Virus record (IMG/VR): IMGVR_UViG_3300021364_001341 | Location: 1 to 29,301 of that record | Source of the DNA: a virus | Length of the DNA: 29,301 nt | Reading direction: 5' to 3' (one strand) | In this document: one piece after another, positions 5,412-23,373 of the stretch | How positions within the stretch are numbered: position 1 is the stretch's first letter | How the letters are laid out: every line of letters begins with the position of its first letter | The notes under the pieces: generated by a model | What the model saw: the letters and a program-made list of their open reading frames with translations, nothing else | Databases searched by the model: none | Told to the model about the DNA's origin: nothing | Made by a program: the position numbers and the translations under genes

Positions 5412-5584
5412 GAGTATTGATTAAGAATTACGGAGACTGTAGAGTCTTTTCAGATAGACCATTCGGTTACAAAAGATATATCGTATCATGGAATGATGGC
5501 ACAGAAACCATCTATTCAGGTTTGTGGTATAAAGAGAAAAGAGTATTAGAAATAGTTGAGGATAGTTTAATCGATTATGCCTAG
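5408..5584 (+). CDS. Small hypothetical protein (58 aa)
   Basis: An ORF of 58 codons that fills the otherwise empty stretch between two genes. Its ATG overlaps the previous stop (ATGA at 5408-5411) and its stop overlaps the next start by 8 bases, the same close packing as its neighbours. This supports it as a real gene. The product is basic and aromatic (VSWNDGTETIYSGLWYKE), with no motif known to me. Confidence 0.6.
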   Translation: MRVLIKNYGDCRVFSDRPFGYKRYIVSWNDGTETIYSGLWYKEKRVLEIVEDSLIDYA

Positions 5585-5873
5585 ATACGATTTTCTCAAT
5601 ACAGAGACAAATGAGATTGAAGAACATATGATGTCTTACACAAAACTTGATGAGTTCAAAGAAAATAATCCACATCTTAAACAACAAATCAGTGCATTGA
5701 ATATAGTAGGTGGCACTGGCGACAGAGTGAAGACAGATGCTGGTTTCAAAGAAGTCTTATCTAAGATTGGTGAAGGACATCCAAGTTCACCACTAAACAC
5801 TAACAAGTCAATCAAAGACATCAAAACAAAAGAGATTGTCAAAAAGCACATTCACAAACAAGCAAAAAAGTAG
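5577..5873 (+). CDS. Conserved phage protein with FmdB-like N-terminus
   Basis: A 98-aa protein whose start (MPRYDFLNTETNEIEE) resembles the first strand pair of FmdB-type regulatory proteins (MPxYEF...), but without the zinc-binding cysteines. The middle block 'KTDAGFKEVLSKIGEGHPSS' recalls conserved cyanophage and pelagiphage proteins of unknown function. The C-terminus is lysine-rich, so nucleic-acid contact is possible. It sits just before the nuclease gene. Confidence 0.6.
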   Translation: MPRYDFLNTETNEIEEHMMSYTKLDEFKENNPHLKQQISALNIVGGTGDRVKTDAGFKEVLSKIGEGHPSSPLNTNKSIKDIKTKEIVKKHIHKQAKK

Positions 5874-5884: not shown

Positions 5885-6568
5885 ATGACTGAAATAAAGA
5901 GGAAGACTCTGCCAATAGAGTTACATGAACTTGAACAAATCAAACTTGATACAGTTCAAGAGAATGGTAAAAGATTCTATGTTGATGATACAGGTGAGAG
6001 ATATCCTAGTGTTACTACAGTTACAAGTTTACTTACAAGAGACCAAATAAAACTTTGGAGAGAAAGAGTTGGTGAAGAACAAGCAAATAGAGTTTCAAGT
6101 AGAGCATCACGTAGAGGCACAAAGTTTCACAGTTTAGTCGAGGACTATCTTCGTAAAGAGAAAGCTTTCATTGAGTTTGATGACGTGATGCAAGAATCTC
6201 AGTTCATGGGTGTTAAACCATTACTCGATGAAGTCATACCTATTGCCCTAGAGGCACCTTTGTTTTCTACAGAATTAAAAATGGCAGGTCGAGTTGATTG
6301 TGTTGGACTATTCGAAAATAAATTATCTATTATCGATTTCAAAACAAGTAGTAAATTTAAAACAGAAGAAATGGCAAAACCTTGGTTCGTGCAAATGACT
6401 GCCTATGCAATCATGGTTGAAGAGCTAACAAACGAGCCTATTGAAGAAATTACGGCAATGGTTGCCATGGAGGACGGAAACTTTCAATTGTTTTCTGCTG
6501 ACCCAGGTGACTATGTAACACAACTATATGGTCTAAGACAACAATATAGAAATTTATATGGAGTATAA
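5885..6568 (+). CDS. PD-(D/E)XK exonuclease-like protein
   Basis: A 227-aa protein with the RecB/lambda-exonuclease-type core. 'RASRRGTKFHSLVEDYL' (73-89) is the helical motif with H82, followed by E130, GRVD (135-138, D138 metal ligand), IIDFKT (149-154, D151 and K153 of the DxK half) and a downstream Q170/Y174 motif. This fold cuts DNA with Mg2+ and is typical of 5'-3' exonucleases used in phage recombination or host DNA breakdown. It is encoded upstream of gp33/gp59/gp32, consistent with replication or recombination. The ATG lacks a Shine-Dalgarno sequence and follows a -10 box closely. Confidence 0.82.
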   Translation: MTEIKRKTLPIELHELEQIKLDTVQENGKRFYVDDTGERYPSVTTVTSLLTRDQIKLWRERVGEEQANRVSSRASRRGTKFHSLVEDYLRKEKAFIEFDDVMQESQFMGVKPLLDEVIPIALEAPLFSTELKMAGRVDCVGLFENKLSIIDFKTSSKFKTEEMAKPWFVQMTAYAIMVEELTNEPIEEITAMVAMEDGNFQLFSADPGDYVTQLYGLRQQYRNLYGV

Positions 6569-10751: not shown

Positions 10752-12374
10752 TTACTTAGACAATGCTTCTGCGACTGCAGGTTGTCCTTGTTGAACGTAA
10801 GCACTTGTAATATTTTGCTGAAGACTTGGTGCCATAATTTGTGCCAACTGTCCTTGTCTACCTAGTTTACTATCTAAGAAAGTTGTTTTACCTTCAGCAG
10901 TTTGTTCTGCAATTTTTTCACCTGTTTGCTTTGCTTTACTAATATATCTGTCAGCAACCATTCCCATGTTGTTATTGTTGATGTCAATACCACCAATATC
11001 ACTTTCTACATCGTCTATTATAGTTCTTAGATTAACTCGTTTATTTTCAGATTGCAGTTTTGCTAATCTGTCTTGGGCAGATACTTCATTAGTTTCATTA
11101 TACTTATTAATAAAATTATTTGCAGCCTCTATAGCTTTTTGAGCGGTCTCTCTTTGTGAATCATTTCTAGCATTCTTAAGTCTTTTTTCTAATTCTGGCA
11201 AACGTCTTGCAGACTCTAAAGCAAGTATATCTAATTCTGCTTGAGAGGTGGCATCTGCTTGAAATTCTTCTTTTGATTTTTGTAATACATCACCTTGTGC
11301 ATTTACAAGTTGACCTGATTCATTGTATTTTGAATCTTTTGTTGTAAGTCCTTCTTCTCTAATCTTTTTTAACTTCTCTTCTTTAGAAATATCCATAGCA
11401 CCGATTTCATTAACTCTATCTCTATCTTTTGCTATTGCATTGACTCGGTTTCTTCTTTGAACTTCTTTTTCATTCTTTTCAATCATTGCTTCTCTATCTT
11501 TTTTAGATAAGAAATCTGCACCTACTTTACCTAGTAAATCATTAATGCCTAGAATTAAACTTCTTACGCCGTTTGCAAATCGACCAAATACATTTTGTAT
11601 CATATTGATTGTATCACCAATGGCATCCCAACCATTAAGAGCAGAAATGAATAGACCAATAGCAGTCGCAACTGCAACAAGAGCGGCAACAACTGCAAGA
11701 CCTTTTAATGCAAAAAGTGCCACAGGTATTAACATAGCACCAAGACCCACAGTCAATCTAAACAGTCCTGCACCAAAAGCTTTTAGTCCTGCTAGAACAG
11801 GAGCAAGTGCCATCATTATCTTATCATTGATACCACTAAACATGTTCTTAAATCCTTCACTGACCTCTGAAGTTAAGGCAAGAGCATTATTAGTATTAGG
11901 ATTTGGTAAAGCATTTCCATCTATTACTTCGTATTCACCATCTATTATATTTGAATCGTCAGGTTCAACTTGAGATTGTTGTTCTTGTTTTCTTGATTTA
12001 CCTTGTAAGAAGTTTAATCCAGCAAAAGCAAAACTACCTATCTCAGCGAAAGGTGCAAATAAATCTCCTAATGCATTAAATTTTTTACTAACTTCTTCTA
12101 TGATACCTTTGATATCAATGAAACCCATAGATAGTTCTTTCAAACCATCTGCTGACCTACCAAAAGCACCTTTCATTCCATCGCCAGCTCTTTCTAGATT
12201 AGAAATTACTTTTTTAACTTTGTCGCCAATCTTATCTTGTTTTTCAATTACAACATCTTGCTTTTCTACAGATACATCTAAATTGTCTGTTATCTGCCTA
12301 GTTTTATCTGCAAACGGTCTTGCAAACTTATCTAAAACTGCTGATTGTAATTGTGGATTGACTGCGACTTCCAT
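10752..12374 (-). CDS. Tail tape-measure/baseplate hub candidate (gp29-like)
   Basis: A 540-aa protein, close to T4 gp29 (590 aa). The N-terminal third is helical with heptad-like segments (VEKQDVVIEKQDKIG), residues 187-247 are strongly hydrophobic and alanine/glycine-rich, and residues 275-400 are charged coiled-coil. This is the usual make-up of a tape measure that sets tail length and passes through the tube. It is the last gene of the leftward cluster gp26-(2-TM protein)-this gene, the usual place for a tape measure after the tail-assembly chaperone. By-eye homology to gp29 itself is not evident; the call rests on size, composition and position. Confidence 0.6.
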   Translation of the reverse strand: MEVAVNPQLQSAVLDKFARPFADKTRQITDNLDVSVEKQDVVIEKQDKIGDKVKKVISNLERAGDGMKGAFGRSADGLKELSMGFIDIKGIIEEVSKKFNALGDLFAPFAEIGSFAFAGLNFLQGKSRKQEQQSQVEPDDSNIIDGEYEVIDGNALPNPNTNNALALTSEVSEGFKNMFSGINDKIMMALAPVLAGLKAFGAGLFRLTVGLGAMLIPVALFALKGLAVVAALVAVATAIGLFISALNGWDAIGDTINMIQNVFGRFANGVRSLILGINDLLGKVGADFLSKKDREAMIEKNEKEVQRRNRVNAIAKDRDRVNEIGAMDISKEEKLKKIREEGLTTKDSKYNESGQLVNAQGDVLQKSKEEFQADATSQAELDILALESARRLPELEKRLKNARNDSQRETAQKAIEAANNFINKYNETNEVSAQDRLAKLQSENKRVNLRTIIDDVESDIGGIDINNNNMGMVADRYISKAKQTGEKIAEQTAEGKTTFLDSKLGRQGQLAQIMAPSLQQNITSAYVQQGQPAVAEALSK

Positions 12375-12763
12375 TATTTACCGAATGCCTTACCTGCTTC
12401 TGATATTCCAAATGCACCAAGTGTAACTACTACAAACGATGTGTAGATTGTGTCTGATATTAATAAGTCCATTCCCCAAAATGCAGTGATTAAATCACAA
12501 ACACCGAAGACTACCATTAAGAAAAATGATATGAACCCTATGATTGATTTTTCGTTGATGTCGTTTTCATCTCTGAACAATGCCCCAATTGAAAATCTTT
12601 CTACTGGTTTCGCTGCCGCAGTAGCAATTTTGAGCTCTTTGGACATCTTTTCCATTTCTTTAATCTTGTCCTGTGCTTCATCAACTTTCAGAACAAGTTC
12701 AGTATACTTCTCAAGGTCGACTTTAACTTCGCCACTACCTTGTTTTATTGTTTCATCTGCCAT
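12374..12763 (-). CDS. Two-transmembrane protein between gp26 and tape-measure genes
   Basis: A 129-aa protein with an N-terminal coiled-coil stretch (residues 15-50) and two hydrophobic helices (about 73-96 and 101-122) with a short turn. Topology resembles class II holins, but its place in the tail operon suggests a virion or assembly-linked membrane protein. It starts one base after the end of the predicted gp26 frameshift product, with AAAGGA as ribosome-binding site, and overlaps the tape-measure start by one base. Confidence 0.6.
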   Translation of the reverse strand: MADETIKQGSGEVKVDLEKYTELVLKVDEAQDKIKEMEKMSKELKIATAAAKPVERFSIGALFRDENDINEKSIIGFISFFLMVVFGVCDLITAFWGMDLLISDTIYTSFVVVTLGAFGISEAGKAFGK

Positions 12764-12764
12764 G

Positions 12765-12944
12765 TTATTTCCTTTTTTGTCGTTCTTTCTCTTCTTCTAA
12801 GTATTGAAGTAAGAGTTTAATGTATATCTCCCTTTCCCATGGCATCATATTTTCTAATTCAGTTAATGAATAATTATGATGTTGCATTAACTGAAAGTTG
12901 GTGTTATAATAATTATACACCGACTCATGTGAAAGGGCGATTAA
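12765..12944 (-). CDS. -1 frameshift extension of gp26 (59 aa), tail-assembly-chaperone type
   Basis: In the -1 frame relative to gp26, translation past the T-run stays open for exactly 59 codons and stops at 12765-12767, one base before the next start. The product is a coherent helical tail with 'ELENMMPWEREIYIKLLLQY' and then EEEKERQKRK, which looks like the T-part of G/GT tail chaperones (short helix pair plus charged end), not random sequence. The only ATG in this stretch (minus strand, 12885-12887) would give a 40-aa peptide but has no Shine-Dalgarno sequence. A -1 slip would give a fusion of about 291 aa. No independent gene or promoter explains the open frame. Confidence 0.6.
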   Translation of the reverse strand, partial: LIALSHESVYNYYNTNFQLMQHHNYSLTELENMMPWEREIYIKLLLQYLEEEKERQKRK

Positions 12945-13639
12945 AAAAAATTTTCTAAACCTTTCAACTCTATGACTTGTTTATTACTACACAAAGGACA
13001 AACTGCTTCTATTTCATGAGATAACGTTGGCACTTGAGATATAAAAGTTGCAATCTTTTCTATTTGTGTCACGGTTAAACTCTCAAAAAATTCAGTTTTC
13101 TCTGCATCTGAATAATCTACTAAATCATAAACGTTTTCTTCATCATATATTTGAACAACACAAGACTTTACTATTTCCATAAATGTCTTTGTATTATCAT
13201 CACTGATACTACCTTGTATTGATGATTTCGGATATTCTAAAATGACTCCTAACTCATCTGATAACTCTATTTTAGTATCTGGTAAATTTGATGTATCAAT
13301 TTCTATCTCATTCAAATTTACAGTATGTGGTGTTTTACCAATACAGTCCTCTTTTTCACAAGGAATGTTTAATTCGGTAGTTTCACCCACTGATTTACTT
13401 CTAATTTGCAAAAATAGATACTCTAAATCTGCAATAGGTAAATCATCAGTGTTTACTTGACCTTCAGTAACAGCATGAACCATTTCTTTTAAAACATTGT
13501 ATGATTCTTTTTGCTCACTGTCTTGTAATAGCATCAAATTTCTTTGTTCTTTTACAAGAAATGGTCTAAATTTCACTTCTTTTTTACTCAAAGGCAACTC
13601 ACAATAATAATGTGGTGCCTTTTGCACTGGTAATCCCAT
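12941..13639 (-). CDS. gp26: gp26-like baseplate hub/tail assembly protein (T4_baseplate family)
   Basis: A 232-aa protein (T4 gp26 is 208 aa). Family features seen: 'LPLSKKEVKFRPFLVKEQRN' (15-34), a central 'DLEYLFLQIRSKSVGE', and paired cysteines (CEKEDC near the middle, CPLC near the C-terminus), the pattern of the T4 base plate family. T4 gp26 takes part in hub assembly. The zero-frame protein ends LENFF at a T-run immediately before TAA; the -1 frame continues for 59 codons. Good ribosome-binding site (TTAGGAG). Six bases downstream of the probable gp54 stop in the leftward operon. Confidence 0.78.
   Translation of the reverse strand: MGLPVQKAPHYYCELPLSKKEVKFRPFLVKEQRNLMLLQDSEQKESYNVLKEMVHAVTEGQVNTDDLPIADLEYLFLQIRSKSVGETTELNIPCEKEDCIGKTPHTVNLNEIEIDTSNLPDTKIELSDELGVILEYPKSSIQGSISDDNTKTFMEIVKSCVVQIYDEENVYDLVDYSDAEKTEFFESLTVTQIEKIATFISQVPTLSHEIEAVCPLCSNKQVIELKGLENFF
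12944..12950 (-). promoter_or_regulatory. Candidate -1 slippery heptamer U UUU UUU at the end of gp26
   Basis: On the minus strand gp26 ends GAA AAT TTT TTT TAA, so the last two sense codons form U UUU UUU in the right phase for tandem -1 slippage, with the stop directly 3'. The overlapping A AAU UUU also fits X XXY YYZ. A Shine-Dalgarno-like AAAGG lies about nine bases upstream, similar to the dnaX stimulator spacing. A hairpin (12900-12921: GGUGU/ACACC plus an AU stem) lies about 21 bases downstream, further than is usual. Confidence 0.6.
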
Positions 13640-13652
13640 AATAAACTCCTAA

Positions 13653-14339
13653 TTAATCAAAAATTCCACTAATTCTATTTAGTCTCTCTGCAAATTTTGT
13701 TATTTTCTTATTTGGTCCCTTTCCAAATACTCCTAATAAATCGTTAAAGACGCCTAATGCCCTTGCACCTCTGTTTAGACCTGATAAAGAATTTGGATTT
13801 CTGTATTCTGTAGTAAACGACCTGAATGCAAACGTGCATTCAAATCTTAATATCTCATCAGTCTGTTCGTAAGACAATTCTTGTGCTGAAAAACTTATTG
13901 GATATGCTTCGTGTAATTTGTAGACAAGTGATTTCTTGTCCTGTTGTGTAAGTGTTACTATCTCTACTTGACCAACGTAATCTTGGTAGTAACTAAACTG
14001 TGGTAATTGAAGAAACGATTCATCATTTAAATCATCTTGACCGTAAATAAAACTCTGCCATGTCTCAATTAAAAATCTATCAGTAAATGATGAATCACAT
14101 AGAAAGGTAAACGATGCTTCACCACCGTCCATCGCCACACCGTAAGGCATTTTTCTTGCAGGACCATATTCAGATACATCAGAAGTCTCTAATTGTTTAC
14201 CTGGTAATGTAGCACTAATACATCTAATTGATTCCATTTGAATGCCGAGTTTATCACAACGTAAATCAACTGCATAACGATTTGCTCTTGCACCTTGGTC
14301 AAAGTTATATTTTAATTTATCGATTCTCAAGTTGGACAC
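13653..14339 (-). CDS. gp54: gp54-like baseplate-tail tube initiator (tube fold)
   Basis: A 228-aa protein resembling the gp19/gp54 tail-tube family: an N-terminal strand 'NRYAVDLRCDKLGIQ', 'RCISATLPGKQL' (about 39-50), 'MPYGVAMDGGEASFTFLCDS' (about 64-83) and an aromatic 'ETWQSFIYG' helix. gp54 polymerises on gp48 to nucleate the tail tube. The true tube protein gp19 would be expected next to the sheath and head genes, so position near gp48/gp26 favours gp54. The start is GTG (minus 14337-14339), overlapping the previous TAG by one base, with AGGA upstream. Confidence 0.65.
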   Translation of the reverse strand: MSNLRIDKLKYNFDQGARANRYAVDLRCDKLGIQMESIRCISATLPGKQLETSDVSEYGPARKMPYGVAMDGGEASFTFLCDSSFTDRFLIETWQSFIYGQDDLNDESFLQLPQFSYYQDYVGQVEIVTLTQQDKKSLVYKLHEAYPISFSAQELSYEQTDEILRFECTFAFRSFTTEYRNPNSLSGLNRGARALGVFNDLLGVFGKGPNKKITKFAERLNRISGIFD

Positions 14340-14928: not shown

Positions 14929-15798
14929 TTAAAGTCTAGATATTGTGAAATTGTCTGATTGATGTTTCTCTTTTGTTTGTGGATATAGTTCAGTAAACCA
15001 ACGTAAGTCTTCGAATGTAAATACGTAGTCATTATGGGTCTCTAACAGCACACCATCGTCTCCAGACTCACGAAATAAATGTTTGATGTCACTACTCACT
15101 TGACCTTTGACTATAGGTTTTTGATGCTTGAATAAGTCTGTTTTGATATCGACTTCTGCATCGATAATTAAATCCCTACGTTCACCAACATGCATTTCCA
15201 TAATACGACCTTCGATGTTAACTGCGAACTTAGTTTGATTTGGCACATCAAAGATACTAAACCATTCATCAAACGATAAAGGTTGTTTGTCAGTGATTGC
15301 ATTGTCTCTGTCCCAAACAACAACAGGTTTGTCCCACAAATCCATTTGCATGATTGCAAAGACTCTCGACATGCCTGGGTGAATGAATAGTTTTGTTTTA
15401 GTCAGTTGACCTTGCATAGTTGAATACAAACCAATCGTTCTTTCTTGGTGCATTAACCACATAACTTTACAACAATGAAAAGTCCAGTTGTCTTCTTTCT
15501 GAGATATGTCTGCACCCTTATCATGAGGTGGTGATTCGATGTTGCGTAAAAGTGTATCTACGTATTGATTGATTAAATCATAACTGTATTCATCGTCTCT
15601 ATCGTTTAATATGTAACCCATCTTTCTGAGTTCGCCAAATGTAACGAGATAAGGCACGGAACCATTCTCAACGATTTGATAAAATGTGTCTCGTGTTTCT
15701 TCGAGTCTTCTAGGATTATTTTCAAAGTAGAAGAATTCTTCCATTTGAAGATTAAGTTCTTCTGCTTCTTGTTGTGAGGGTTTAGTTAATTTGGGCAT
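14929..15798 (-). CDS. Hypothetical protein of 289 aa
   Basis: Not recognised. It overlaps the end of kdsB by 17 bases. A central segment 'TIGLYSTMQGQLTKTKLFIH' then PGMSRVFA (about residues 121-148) looks like a conserved core; an 'IHPGxSR' motif recalls ParB/sulfiredoxin-like and other 'HPGxxR' phage proteins, which is only a hint. The C-terminal half is acidic and aromatic. Clustered with HAD and kdsB, so either a sugar-pathway partner or a late structural gene. Confidence 0.6.
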   Translation of the reverse strand: MPKLTKPSQQEAEELNLQMEEFFYFENNPRRLEETRDTFYQIVENGSVPYLVTFGELRKMGYILNDRDDEYSYDLINQYVDTLLRNIESPPHDKGADISQKEDNWTFHCCKVMWLMHQERTIGLYSTMQGQLTKTKLFIHPGMSRVFAIMQMDLWDKPVVVWDRDNAITDKQPLSFDEWFSIFDVPNQTKFAVNIEGRIMEMHVGERRDLIIDAEVDIKTDLFKHQKPIVKGQVSSDIKHLFRESGDDGVLLETHNDYVFTFEDLRWFTELYPQTKEKHQSDNFTISRL

Positions 15799-16546
15799 TT
15801 AGATAGTTCTCCACGTTCTTTAAATCTCTTTGAGTGTCTACTGATAGTCCTTCATCTTGCACTTGAACCATGTTGACTGTCCATGAGTTCTCTAAGAATC
15901 TAAGCATCTCAATACCTTCTGCTTTCTCAACGGAACCTACTGGCATATTAGCGAACTGTTCTAACGTTTCACGATTGAACACATACAAGCCAAGTTGTTG
16001 ATAGAAATATGGCTCTTTACCTTTCTGATAGGGTATTCCGTATCGTGAATAATACATTGCATTGTCGTTCATATCTAAAACACATTTAACAACATTGTTG
16101 TCATGTAGTTTGTGCCATAAATCGTCTTCATCTAATACAACATATGCATTCGATACACCTATTTCTTTATCATGATTACGAATCAGTTCATCAATTGCAT
16201 TGGGGTCTATCAAAGGTTCGTCACCTTGAATGTTAACAAAGATATCGCCGTCAATCAAGTCGAGTGCTTTTGCACACCTGTCTGTTCCAGTCTCGCATTC
16301 TTCTTCAATCACAATACAACGTATCTCATTGTTGACACAATAATCATTGATTCGTTTATCATCTGTTAACACGACAACAGTATCTAACTCTTCACATTGA
16401 GTTGCTTGGTCATAAACTCTTTGTATCATTGGTACACTATTGATGAGTGCTAAAGGTTTACCTTCAAATCGAGTTGAGTTCCATCTTGCAGGTATGAGAC
16501 CTACGGTAAGATTAGTTGTTCTATCTGGTTCACTGAGTGTTCGCAT
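15782..16546 (-). CDS. kdsB: CMP-KDO synthetase-like cytidylyltransferase (KdsB)
   Basis: A 254-aa protein, the usual KdsB length. Motifs in order: 'LIPARWNSTRFEGKPL' (17-32, nucleotide binding), TGTDR (86-90), 'FVNIQGDEPLI' (103-113), 'VVKCVLDMNDNAMYYSRYGI' (about 153-172), 'QLGLYVFNRETL' and a final 'SVDTQRDLKNVE'. The enzyme activates 3-deoxy-manno-octulosonate (or a related acid sugar) with CTP to CMP-sugar for lipopolysaccharide or capsule. Adjacent to a HAD phosphatase, as KdsB and KdsC act in one pathway. The start overlaps the HAD gene by 46 bases; an AGGTGAA ribosome-binding site supports it. Confidence 0.88.
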   Translation of the reverse strand: MRTLSEPDRTTNLTVGLIPARWNSTRFEGKPLALINSVPMIQRVYDQATQCEELDTVVVLTDDKRINDYCVNNEIRCIVIEEECETGTDRCAKALDLIDGDIFVNIQGDEPLIDPNAIDELIRNHDKEIGVSNAYVVLDEDDLWHKLHDNNVVKCVLDMNDNAMYYSRYGIPYQKGKEPYFYQQLGLYVFNRETLEQFANMPVGSVEKAEGIEMLRFLENSWTVNMVQVQDEGLSVDTQRDLKNVENYLNAQIN

Positions 16547-17115
16547 TTCACCTGTCCATATCCATAGTTTGCATGTATAAAATCCACACCTGCCCTTTGA
16601 GCAGTTTCATAATCACTTTGCATATCTCCAATATAGACTGTATCTTTAGGGTCTTCATTACAGAATGCAATAGTATTTAGTAGTTGGTCAGGAGAAGGTT
16701 TTCCTCTGAGACCTTTCTTCGGCGCACAAACCCAATCAAACTTTGGTAGTTTATCACCATCTAAAATCAAACTTGATATCACATGTTGTACACGTTTGAT
16801 ATCTTTTGATGTACAGATGGCAATCTTACTACCTTGTTTCTTCAATTCTTTGAGTGTCTTAATAACACCTGGGTATATCTTTACTTCATCACCTTGTATT
16901 GATGCTTCATCATAAGTTAGTTTGATACTACTATGATTCTCATCTATTCCTATTGCAGTGAGTATGTCCCCAAATGGTTTACCGATATGCTTTTCATATT
17001 CTGAAAAGGGTATATCAATCTTATGTTTTAATTGAACGATTCCCCATGACATCTTCATGTTTGGGAGAGAGTCTATGAGAACTCCATCTAAATCGAATAC
17101 GTATAATTTCTTCAT
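16501..17115 (-). CDS. HAD-family phosphatase
   Basis: A 204-aa HAD hydrolase of the phosphoglycolate phosphatase (cap type I) kind. Motif I is FDLDGVLIDS (7-16, nucleophile D8, general acid D10), motif II ICTSK (100-104), motif III lysine in RGKPSPD (K139), motif IV YIGDMQSDYETA (161-172, D164 and D168). It would remove phosphate from a small metabolite. Placement before kdsB suggests a sugar-phosphate such as KDO-8-phosphate, a role played elsewhere by KdsC, which is a different HAD subfamily; this link is inference. Overlaps gp4 by 4 bases. Confidence 0.8.
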   Translation of the reverse strand: MKKLYVFDLDGVLIDSLPNMKMSWGIVQLKHKIDIPFSEYEKHIGKPFGDILTAIGIDENHSSIKLTYDEASIQGDEVKIYPGVIKTLKELKKQGSKIAICTSKDIKRVQHVISSLILDGDKLPKFDWVCAPKKGLRGKPSPDQLLNTIAFCNEDPKDTVYIGDMQSDYETAQRAGVDFIHANYGYGQVKCEHSVNQIEQLILP

Positions 17116-17558
17116 TTGCCTTTACCTGGTGTAAGTTCTTTCTCAGTTAGAATTCTAAACTTGTATCTTCGGTCAGCACAATACTCTTCTGCCGCTTTGA
17201 ACTTTGCTTGATTTACAAGATAAGTATTCACCTCTGTAAGAAACCTTTTTGTTTGTCTTTGTGGTTTCTTAGGTGGGAATAATTGTTTGTATGGTTTGAC
17301 TTCTATTACTTCACGAACTATTTGTTTATCCTTATTAGTATATTTTACATAAAAATCGGGAAAATATCTATGGGGTTTTTTATCTACAGGTGACCTGTAA
17401 GGTATAAAGAACTCTTCACTGCCCCATTCAAGGACAGCATCGTTGTTATCACACCAAACCATAAATCTTTTTTCTAACAGAGACCGATAGAAAATTTTTG
17501 TTGGGTCACCTTTGTACTTTTTGTAGTTCTTCGGTTTAAACTTACCACTGTATGACAT
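17112..17558 (-). CDS. gp4: gp4 head completion protein
   Basis: A 148-aa protein matching T4 gp4 (150 aa). 'MSYSGKFKPKNYKKYKGDPT' corresponds to the T4 start (MAYSGKWVPKNISKYRGDP), 'WGSEEFFIPY' to 'WGSETAVIPY', 'HRYFPDFYVK' to 'RRYFMDIWMK', 'IEVKP' to 'IEIKP' and 'RYKFRILTE' to 'GIKFRILTE'. The E-x-K and D positions fit a nuclease-like fold. gp4 stabilises the filled head before tail joining. First gene of the leftward cluster, expressed from the late promoter at 17583-17590. Confidence 0.92.
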   Translation of the reverse strand: MSYSGKFKPKNYKKYKGDPTKIFYRSLLEKRFMVWCDNNDAVLEWGSEEFFIPYRSPVDKKPHRYFPDFYVKYTNKDKQIVREVIEVKPYKQLFPPKKPQRQTKRFLTEVNTYLVNQAKFKAAEEYCADRRYKFRILTEKELTPGKGK

Positions 17559-20898: not shown

Positions 20899-21973
20899 TT
20901 TTTTCTACGGCATAGTTGAAGATAGAAATGACCCTTTGCAAATTGGTAGGGTGAGAGTTCGTGTTCATGGTGTTCACACTGATGACAAGAAACTTATATC
21001 TTCAGCAGACTTGCCATGGTCACAAGTTTTAATACCAACAACAAGTGCTGGATTATCTGGATTTGGACATGGTCATGGGCTTGTTGAAGGAACAACAGTC
21101 TTCGGAATGTTTCGTGATGATGAGAGACAAGACTTCTTAGTTCTAGGAGTCGCATTAGGAATCAATCAGACTGGTTACAAGATTACAATAACAGATGAGT
21201 TATTGACTAGGTCAGTTGACAAAGGATTCAATGACCCTAGAAGACAGACACAAACAGATTATAACAACTCAGTTGACGGTCTAAATTCTGGCACGGACAG
21301 AAAACGTCCTAACGAATTATCATTAGCACTTGATACATCACCTCAGTTGCCAAAAGGATTAGAAATAACTAATAAAGATAACAAATACGAAGTCAAATTA
21401 ACAGAACCTTCATCTAAAGAATTGCCGTATTACCCTCTCAAAGATTATTACAATGAATCAGATTTAAATAGATTTGCAAAAGGTGGTGGTGATTATAGCA
21501 CTAGAGATAATTTACCAAACGGATTTGTTCCTGATTTAGATGAAATATATCCAGCATACAATGAAGAAAAGAAAGAGGGTAATATATGGAAAAAAGAAGC
21601 AGGAAGAAAGTCTCTATATCCATTTAACAAAGTACATCATACAGAATCAGGTCACATGATAGAGATGGACGATTCTGTGGGCGCAGAACGATTGGCAGTA
21701 TCACACAGGTCAGGAACATTTTACGAAATACATAAAGATGGTTCAGAAGTTCATCGAGTCGTTAACGATAATTATACAGTCATATGTAAAGATGATAATG
21801 TATACATCGGTGGCAAATGTAATATTAAAATTTTAGGAGATGCAAACATCGATATCGATGGTAAAGCAGACATACATTCAGATAAAGCAATGAAAATCTC
21901 ATCAAGTATATCAACGACTATCACTGCACCTCTCGTTGACATCAATGGTAAAACAGTTAAACTTAATTCATAA
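20891..21973 (+). CDS. gp5: gp5-like central spike without lysozyme domain
   Basis: A 360-aa protein from the ATG at 20891. The start has GAAGGA upstream and gives 'MNNFFYGIVEDRNDPLQIGR', the gp5 OB-fold start; an in-frame ATG at 20867 would add eight residues. 'GLSGFGHGHGLVEGTTVFGM' then FRDDE (about residues 49-73) continues the OB fold. Residues 225-360 hold the trimeric beta-helix stem with short repeats (NYTVICKDDNVYIGGK, 'CNIKILGDANIDIDGKADIH'). The lysozyme domain present between these parts in T4 gp5 is missing, as in other marine T4-like phages. It forms the membrane-piercing spike on the gp27 hub. Confidence 0.82.
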   Translation: MNNFFYGIVEDRNDPLQIGRVRVRVHGVHTDDKKLISSADLPWSQVLIPTTSAGLSGFGHGHGLVEGTTVFGMFRDDERQDFLVLGVALGINQTGYKITITDELLTRSVDKGFNDPRRQTQTDYNNSVDGLNSGTDRKRPNELSLALDTSPQLPKGLEITNKDNKYEVKLTEPSSKELPYYPLKDYYNESDLNRFAKGGGDYSTRDNLPNGFVPDLDEIYPAYNEEKKEGNIWKKEAGRKSLYPFNKVHHTESGHMIEMDDSVGAERLAVSHRSGTFYEIHKDGSEVHRVVNDNYTVICKDDNVYIGGKCNIKILGDANIDIDGKADIHSDKAMKISSSISTTITAPLVDINGKTVKLNS

Positions 21974-23373
21974 TGACTACAGCACCAACATATGATGTAC
22001 CACAAGTCCCTTCGGCATTTCCATGCCCACCAGGTGATATCTTTAATCTTCCTACAAAAGAAGAGTTACTCAATGCAATCAATAAGATTGCACAAATACC
22101 AAGTGAAATTAAATCCTTTTTAGTAGAAAAGAAAGATGAGATAGCAGAAGACGTAGCAAAAGAATTACAAAAAATATCAGATGAAATCTCTGAGTTTATG
22201 GAAAAGATAGCAGACATACTATCTCCGTATTGGCAAAAAGGCACTATTCGCAATTGGCAAAAAGAAGCAAAAGATGCCATCACTGAACTCTTACAAGAGT
22301 TGCATCTCTATATTCCAACAAAGATAATGGAAATCATATCAAAACTTATTCCTTTTGATTTTAATGTAACTGTTCTTGGTATAGAAATCAATCTTCTAAA
22401 GATATTTACTAAAGAAGAGCAACTCAGAATCAAGACTCAAATTGCAGAAGATGTTGATAAGTTTTTTGCTATGGTTGCCGAAGAGTTTCAAGGATTCAAA
22501 GCAGACTTTGGTGTATTATGTAATGAGTGGAAAGCAAAGATGACTTGGCAGTATATTAAAACTAAGTTACAAAATCTTTTAACAGAAGGATTACATAGTA
22601 TCTTTGGTAAGTTGATTGATAAGTTTGATGAGATATGGGACGCCCTTGGACTGCCTAATCTAATTGCATTGTTTACTTTAGATGTGGGTGCATTGATTGA
22701 AGAAGCAATTGCAAAACTAAGAGAAAAAAGAGACGAGTTAGTAGAGAAAGTTCAAAATGCAGTAGGCGAAGCAAGAGAAAAGCTCGAAGAAGAATTGGCA
22801 AGAATTAATGCAGACATATTAGGTGTCATCGAAGATATTAGTCTCTTTGGTTTTAATGTTAGAAGTATTATTGGTGGGTTTATTGATGAGAATGTCGCAT
22901 CTTTAGAAGAGAAAATTATGGAGTTCAAACTAGCATTAGAAGACTTCAAACAAAATTGGCAGAAGAAGTTATTAATGGAATGGGTAAAGATTGTGAAGAA
23001 GTTCTTTGATGCAATCGGTCTAGGAAAAATCTTTGAATTCTTAACATTTACATTTTGTGATTTACTCAATCTAATAGGATTCCCTTTTGCAATCAACATA
23101 AGTAATGCGACTTTACCAAAACCAGTCCATCCAGAAGTAATAAAAGACCCTGCATTACTAACATTCAGTGAAGGAACAGCATCGTATGATGGAGATGGTG
23201 AGACTCAAAGTTTTTCTATACCAAGTGGCAGTGGTTCTATTCATGTTTTTGTAAATGGCGAAGCACAAGTCGGAGGAATACTTGGGTCTTATTCGATTTC
23301 AGATGGAAATATTACTTTTAGAGACAGTAGTGTTCCAAATGTTGAAGATATGGTTTCGATAATAAAGATATAA
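21973..23373 (+). CDS. Large helical virion structural protein
   Basis: A 466-aa protein. Proline-rich start (VPQVPSAFPCPPGD), then long charged helices (residues 30-370) with coiled-coil character, for example 'KLREKRDELVEKVQNAVGEA'. A small beta module at the C-terminus ('YDGDGETQSFSIPSGSGSIH' then VFVNGEAQ) resembles 'xFVNGxxQ' domains common in phage tail proteins. It sits between gp5 and gp25; I recall similar unnamed proteins in the same place in cyanophages. Probably a baseplate component; specific role unknown. One-base overlap with gp5. Confidence 0.65.
   Translation: MTTAPTYDVPQVPSAFPCPPGDIFNLPTKEELLNAINKIAQIPSEIKSFLVEKKDEIAEDVAKELQKISDEISEFMEKIADILSPYWQKGTIRNWQKEAKDAITELLQELHLYIPTKIMEIISKLIPFDFNVTVLGIEINLLKIFTKEEQLRIKTQIAEDVDKFFAMVAEEFQGFKADFGVLCNEWKAKMTWQYIKTKLQNLLTEGLHSIFGKLIDKFDEIWDALGLPNLIALFTLDVGALIEEAIAKLREKRDELVEKVQNAVGEAREKLEEELARINADILGVIEDISLFGFNVRSIIGGFIDENVASLEEKIMEFKLALEDFKQNWQKKLLMEWVKIVKKFFDAIGLGKIFEFLTFTFCDLLNLIGFPFAINISNATLPKPVHPEVIKDPALLTFSEGTASYDGDGETQSFSIPSGSGSIHVFVNGEAQVGGILGSYSISDGNITFRDSSVPNVEDMVSIIKI

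Follow-up and report, generated by a model that had tools for sequence, protein, structure and literature searches.

A conserved −1 slip site at the end of gene 26 and the probable short and long forms of a tail assembly chaperone in a marine T4-like phage

Analysis of a 29,301-base virus contig of IMG/VR (the window, meaning the whole stretch of DNA that was analysed) revealed a locus that very probably encodes the tail assembly chaperone of a marine T4-like phage, of which −1 slippage would yield two forms, one short and one long. Comparison with related loci indicates that, at the end of the gp26-family gene, the ribosome almost certainly slips back by one base on occasion on a run of Ts, adding a tail of 59 residues. 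The arrangement is very widely conserved among T4-like phages of marine origin. The locus comprises the following features, all on the minus strand:

13653-14339, minus strand: tail tube-like gene immediately upstream of gp26 (phrog_45, E = 2.7e-31)
12941-13639, minus strand: gp26-family gene, 232 aa, predicted short tail assembly chaperone form (TAC-N) (PF12322, phrog_150, AlphaFold2 model)
12960-12965, minus strand: SD-like GAAAGG, likely stimulator of the slip (sequence; anti-SD pairing in relatives)
12944-12950, minus strand: slippery heptamer T TTT TTT, within the 8-T run at 12943-12950 (sequence; TTTTTTN in relatives)
12765-12944, minus strand: −1 frame tail of 59 codons, putative C-terminal domain of the long form (TAC-NC) (phrog_634, dN/dS)
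12895-12926, minus strand: possible hairpin with a presumed role in the slip (75-nt fold; relatives versus synonymous controls)
12374-12763, minus strand: gene following the tail, 129 aa, two membrane segments predicted (order conserved in relatives)
10752-12374, minus strand: tape measure candidate, 540 aa (position, central hydrophobic stretch, synteny with HTVC008M)

On the minus strand, the slip region reads ...GAAAGG TTTAGAAAA TTTTTTTT AA..., with a spacer of 9 nt between GAAAGG and the heptamer. Read in frame, gp26 ends GAA AAT TTT TTT TAA, and its stop (12943-12941) directly abuts the heptamer T TTT TTT. The −1 frame is translated as LIALSHESVYNYYNTNFQLMQHHNYSLTELENMMPWEREIYIKLLLQYLEEEKERQKRK* (59 aa) and closes with a TAA at 12767-12765, one base ahead of the ATG of the next gene at 12763. 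An earlier note on this DNA, made from the letters alone, had described the end of gp26, the phase of the heptamer, the 59-codon −1 frame and the spacing to the next start, and proved exact to the base on all of them.

Profile searches place both parts of the locus in known families. The gp26 product matches the Pfam family T4_baseplate (PF12322; E = 5.1e-52, 177 bits against a cut-off of 24.5, residues 11-232) and phrog_150, annotated as ‘baseplate hub’ (E = 9.2e-55), and the −1 tail matches phrog_634, the ‘baseplate hub assembly catalyst’ (gp51), with an E-value of 3.6e-26. The tail also matches positions 236-277 of the profile of phrog_150, that is, the C-terminus of the gp26 family itself. 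In tblastn searches (E ≤ 0.01), the tail was found in 480 phage records, mostly of Synechococcus, Prochlorococcus and other cyanophages, and a looser limit extended its distribution to T4-like phages of Vibrio, Aeromonas and Pseudomonas; the tail profile scored 30.6 bits with gp51 of 44RR, 29.6 bits with that of PspYZU05 and 15.2 bits with that of T2.

Related gp26 loci were gathered from IMG/VR and from annotated phages by means of the protein, not of the T run. An in-phase TTTTTTN heptamer together with a −1 frame tail was present in 116 of the 118 gp26-bearing loci or records (TTTTTTC in 55, TTTTTTT in 48, TTTTTTA in 11 and TTTTTTG in 2); in these, the heptamer always lies in the X XXY YYZ phase and no more than 33 nt from the stop of gp26, and the open −1 frame encodes 56-70 aa. 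The two exceptions are T2, in which gp26 and gp51 are encoded by separate genes, and Vibrio phage K357. Across the 103 non-redundant sites, the base preceding the two slippery codons, alternatives to which would be synonymous, is T without exception (log10 p −15.7) and the first slippery Phe codon is TTT in 103 of 103 (log10 p −23.2), these probabilities being calculated from the codon use of each gene with kinship ignored, and hence overstated. TTC makes up about one third of the Phe codons elsewhere in gp26, and the last base of the heptamer is free to vary. Such a wobble pattern is characteristic of tandem slippage on X XXY YYZ and not of a plain Phe-Phe pair or of poly-T. The 0-frame stop follows the heptamer immediately in 35 of the 103 sites and one codon further on in 58. 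The tail shows a dN/dS of about 0.12 across relatives, and both remaining frames hold stops in all 103. The alignment of relatives that the earlier note had called for thus came out as anticipated with respect to the T run, the open −1 frame and its dN/dS. Given that the run of Ts at the end of gp26 is the sole T/A run of eight in the 29.3-kb window, that the tail belongs to a known family and recurs in hundreds of records, and that nearly all heptamers are in phase, the arrangement is not due to chance.

In the 103 non-redundant relatives, pairing with the anti-SD is strongest at 7-10 nt ahead of the heptamer, with a mean of −5.9 kcal/mol as against −4.8 kcal/mol for synonymous controls built with the codons of each gene (z about −8); the stimulator of E. 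coli dnaX sits at this position as well. The SD-like element that had been pointed out upstream of the T run in the window is borne out both by its spacing and by pairing in relatives beyond what the protein imposes. Downstream, the window contains a possible hairpin at approximately 17-22 nt from the heptamer (−10.1 kcal/mol in a 75-nt fold). In the relatives, folding at +4 to +45 is stronger than that of synonymous controls, with a z of −1.65, compared with −0.09 for a control region of gp26, and the 5′ arm of the fold is enriched at +21 to +30. The base pairs differ between lineages and are not conserved as such, and the downstream structure is therefore treated as weaker evidence than the SD-like signal. 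The forced T wobbles, the SD-like stimulator and the dN/dS of the tail show selection for the predicted slip, and the comparisons between genomes document the anatomy of the gene, the phase and conservation of the site, the selection acting on it and the homology with gp51.

A different reading, which we consider very unlikely, is that the 59-aa tail constitutes a small gene in its own right (gp51), on which ribosomes re-initiate at an internal start codon. Database records mostly annotate a small separate CDS, ‘baseplate hub assembly catalyst’, a GTG at 12920 of the window could start a product of 51 aa, and Vibrio phage K357 displays a TAATG overlap and no heptamer. However, in 47 of the 103 non-redundant sites the open −1 frame contains no ATG, GTG or TTG ahead of tail codon 14, and at these sites the tail has no usable start of its own, as the earlier note had expected, and the first tail residues (LSHxSLxNYYxTNF) are conserved even so. 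Furthermore, the GTG, which is the sole start candidate in the window, has no SD pairing, and the annotated start positions of the small gp51 CDS vary between phages. A separate gene would also leave unexplained the fixed T wobbles and the phase of the heptamer, as well as the end-to-end match between T4-type gp51 and the fusion described below. There is similarly little chance that RNA polymerase, instead of the ribosome, slips on the 8-T run. Homopolymers of eight bases can cause RNA polymerase slippage, and the run is the only one of its kind in the window, but 68 of the 116 relatives carry just six Ts followed by C, A or G, which renders this explanation unlikely; moreover, the phase and the pattern at the last base fit tandem re-pairing of tRNAs, and an SD-like stimulator acts on ribosomes. 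Finally, an error of sequencing or assembly that split one plain gene within the T run, a possibility that the earlier note had itself raised and that the error-prone nature of homopolymers in an IMG/VR virus contig might suggest, is refuted by the occurrence of the same split in isolate genomes and in many independent contigs, also with TTTTTTC.

Under ribosomal slippage, the reading that we favour, most ribosomes would stop at the TAA after AAT TTT TTT and produce gp26, the short chaperone (TAC-N), whereas some would step back by one base on T TTT TTT and read 59 further codons to yield TAC-NC. The SD-like sequence 9 nt ahead of the heptamer would aid the slip, perhaps together with the adjacent stop and the downstream hairpin. 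At the gene level, the conserved slip site and the −1 tail provide for a short and a long form that share their N-terminus. By analogy with gpG and gpGT of lambda, the two forms would jointly cover the tape measure protein and recruit subunits of the tail tube while the tail is being assembled. In lambda, as an example of the conserved tail frameshift of double-stranded DNA phages, the −1 slip likewise occurs shortly before the short chaperone ends, and the locus is flanked by the genes for the tail tube and the tape measure; the slippery sequence of the window is different (T TTT TTN), and the likeness is drawn from the arrangement of the genes. The comparative tests strongly support the proposal of the earlier note that a −1 slip makes a short/long chaperone pair whose tail corresponds to the C-terminal end of gp51; slippage itself, its rate and the role of the products as chaperones are inferred.

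Structural modelling, with gp26 and the −1 tail treated as separate chains, is compatible with such a role. Among PDB entries, the AlphaFold2 model of gp26 (pLDDT 91) best matches 2ob9, the tail assembly chaperone of HK97 (Z 6.8, rmsd 4.1, 83 residues), over gp26 residues 1-84, the next-best match having a Z of 4.7; by Foldseek, the similarity of the model to HK97 gp13 is weak (E = 3.5). A Z of 6.8 lies in the range that a commonplace structural arrangement can also reach, and the match fits the chaperone role, albeit not conclusively. Compared with HK97 gp13 (2ob9), gp26 is about twice as long, and the match is limited to its first third. The tail is predicted to be helical (pLDDT 85). Searching the sequences of solved structures with the profiles of gp26 and of the tail returned nothing meaningful, the weak matches of the tail profile to HIV gp41 being helix look-alikes.

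The relationship to the T4-type genes emerges from a profile of the slipped fusion, which scored 46.8 bits with gp51 of T2, 74.4 bits with that of 44RR and 64.7 bits with that of PspYZU05, in each case with the tail aligned at the end; the search set consisted of six sequences, and the E-values apply to those six only. The full-length alignment of T4-type gp51 with the gp26-tail fusion identifies gp26 as the putative TAC-N and the fusion as the putative TAC-NC, and T4-type gp51 is, judging from this homology, the long form encoded as a gene of its own, with a gp26-like body and the tail. In T4 and T2, gp26 would be the short form and gp51 carries the same C-terminal domain as the window's tail; in T2, 44RR and PspYZU05, a separate full-length gene on the strand opposite to gene 26 encodes the long form, and no slip is involved. 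Instead of being replaced by the tail, as had been suggested in the earlier note, gp51 appears to be a second gp26-like protein with the same tail. It was remarked in 2010 that cyanophage gp51, compared with other gp51 proteins, is devoid of the N-terminal ~200 residues (PMC3037559); if gp51 is the long form and gp26 the short one, the part that seems to be missing is gp26. A widespread annotation would be corrected accordingly, the short ‘gp51’ annotated in cyanophages and pelagiphages being no reduced protein but the C-terminal domain that gp26 gains by frameshifting. As the same chaperone pair comes in a slip and a two-gene version, the proportion of the two forms could be compared across phages.

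In the slip-type records that were viewed, the tail is either unannotated or given as a separate ‘gp51’ with varying starts, and none marks a joined, frameshifted CDS; Synechococcus phage S-WAM1 (locus L114, 2501-2695) is one such tail record. In Vibrio phage K357 (locus L117, about 2640-2900), gp26 is without the heptamer, and its stop is overlapped, as TAATG, by an ORF that may be a −1 tail. This downstream ORF resembles the gp51 tail weakly (4 bits with the tail profile), and K357 possibly encodes the C-terminal domain in a third manner. A general description of the locus as a T TTT TTN heptamer with an SD-like sequence 7-10 nt upstream, an often abutting stop and a lineage-specific hairpin ~20 nt downstream, to which K357 would add a third, slip-free solution with its own overlapping TAATG ORF, is tentative and, in our estimation, rather doubtful as a whole.

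The tail assembly chaperone genes of T4-like phages were reportedly identified by Vladimirov, Gautam and Davidson in 2022 (Virology 566:9-15), with frameshifting said to be conserved in several T4-like groups and T4 said to use genes 26 and 51, an account that agrees with the present results. PMC12846349 cites that work for short and long forms made by frameshifting and for poly-T −1 slippery sequences in T4-like TAC-N genes, and PMC10885494 cites it for those T4-like phages in which one short gene is accompanied by a long, fused one instead. The T4-like chaperones so described and those of the window share the gene family, the short and long forms and the poly-T −1 slip, and the present locus is distinguished by its origin from an uncultured marine contig. 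The earlier note had believed the arrangement to be undescribed in T4-like phages, a claim that is not supported in view of these citations: the slip site is real and can be explained well, but its kind has been described before. To what the two citing papers state, the present analysis adds the SD-like stimulator and the tests at the codon level.

Among the neighbouring genes, the 129-aa gene directly follows the tail in nine relatives and in one weak match. The 540-aa product encoded at 10752-12374 is a candidate for the tape measure, as suggested by its position and by the same gene order in Pelagibacter phage HTVC008M, where a ‘putative tail tape measure’ is annotated; it gave no family match, and a direct search of viral_contigs returned no relative. 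A gene at 21973-23373 on the plus strand (466 aa), located between a gp5-like lysozyme gene and a gp25-like gene, weakly matches a tape measure family (phrog_1272, E = 1.2e-5) and is a competing candidate for the tape measure.

Two other gene ends in the window look slippery, but translation in all frames gave neither of them a −1 tail of its own: at 5577-5873 (A AAA AAG), the −1 frame hits stops within a few codons, and at 5885-6568 (A AAT TTA), it merely runs into the next gene. The head-closure (gp4-like) protein encoded at 17112-17558 (minus strand) also matches the N-terminal domain of the TnsA-like endonuclease family of Pfam (E = 1.5e-23). Within the block of structural genes, cytidylyltransferase and HAD hydrolase genes (Pfam) at 15782-17115 (minus strand), flanked by the genes for the head-closure protein and the DNA end protector, are likely cargo for sugar-nucleotide metabolism.
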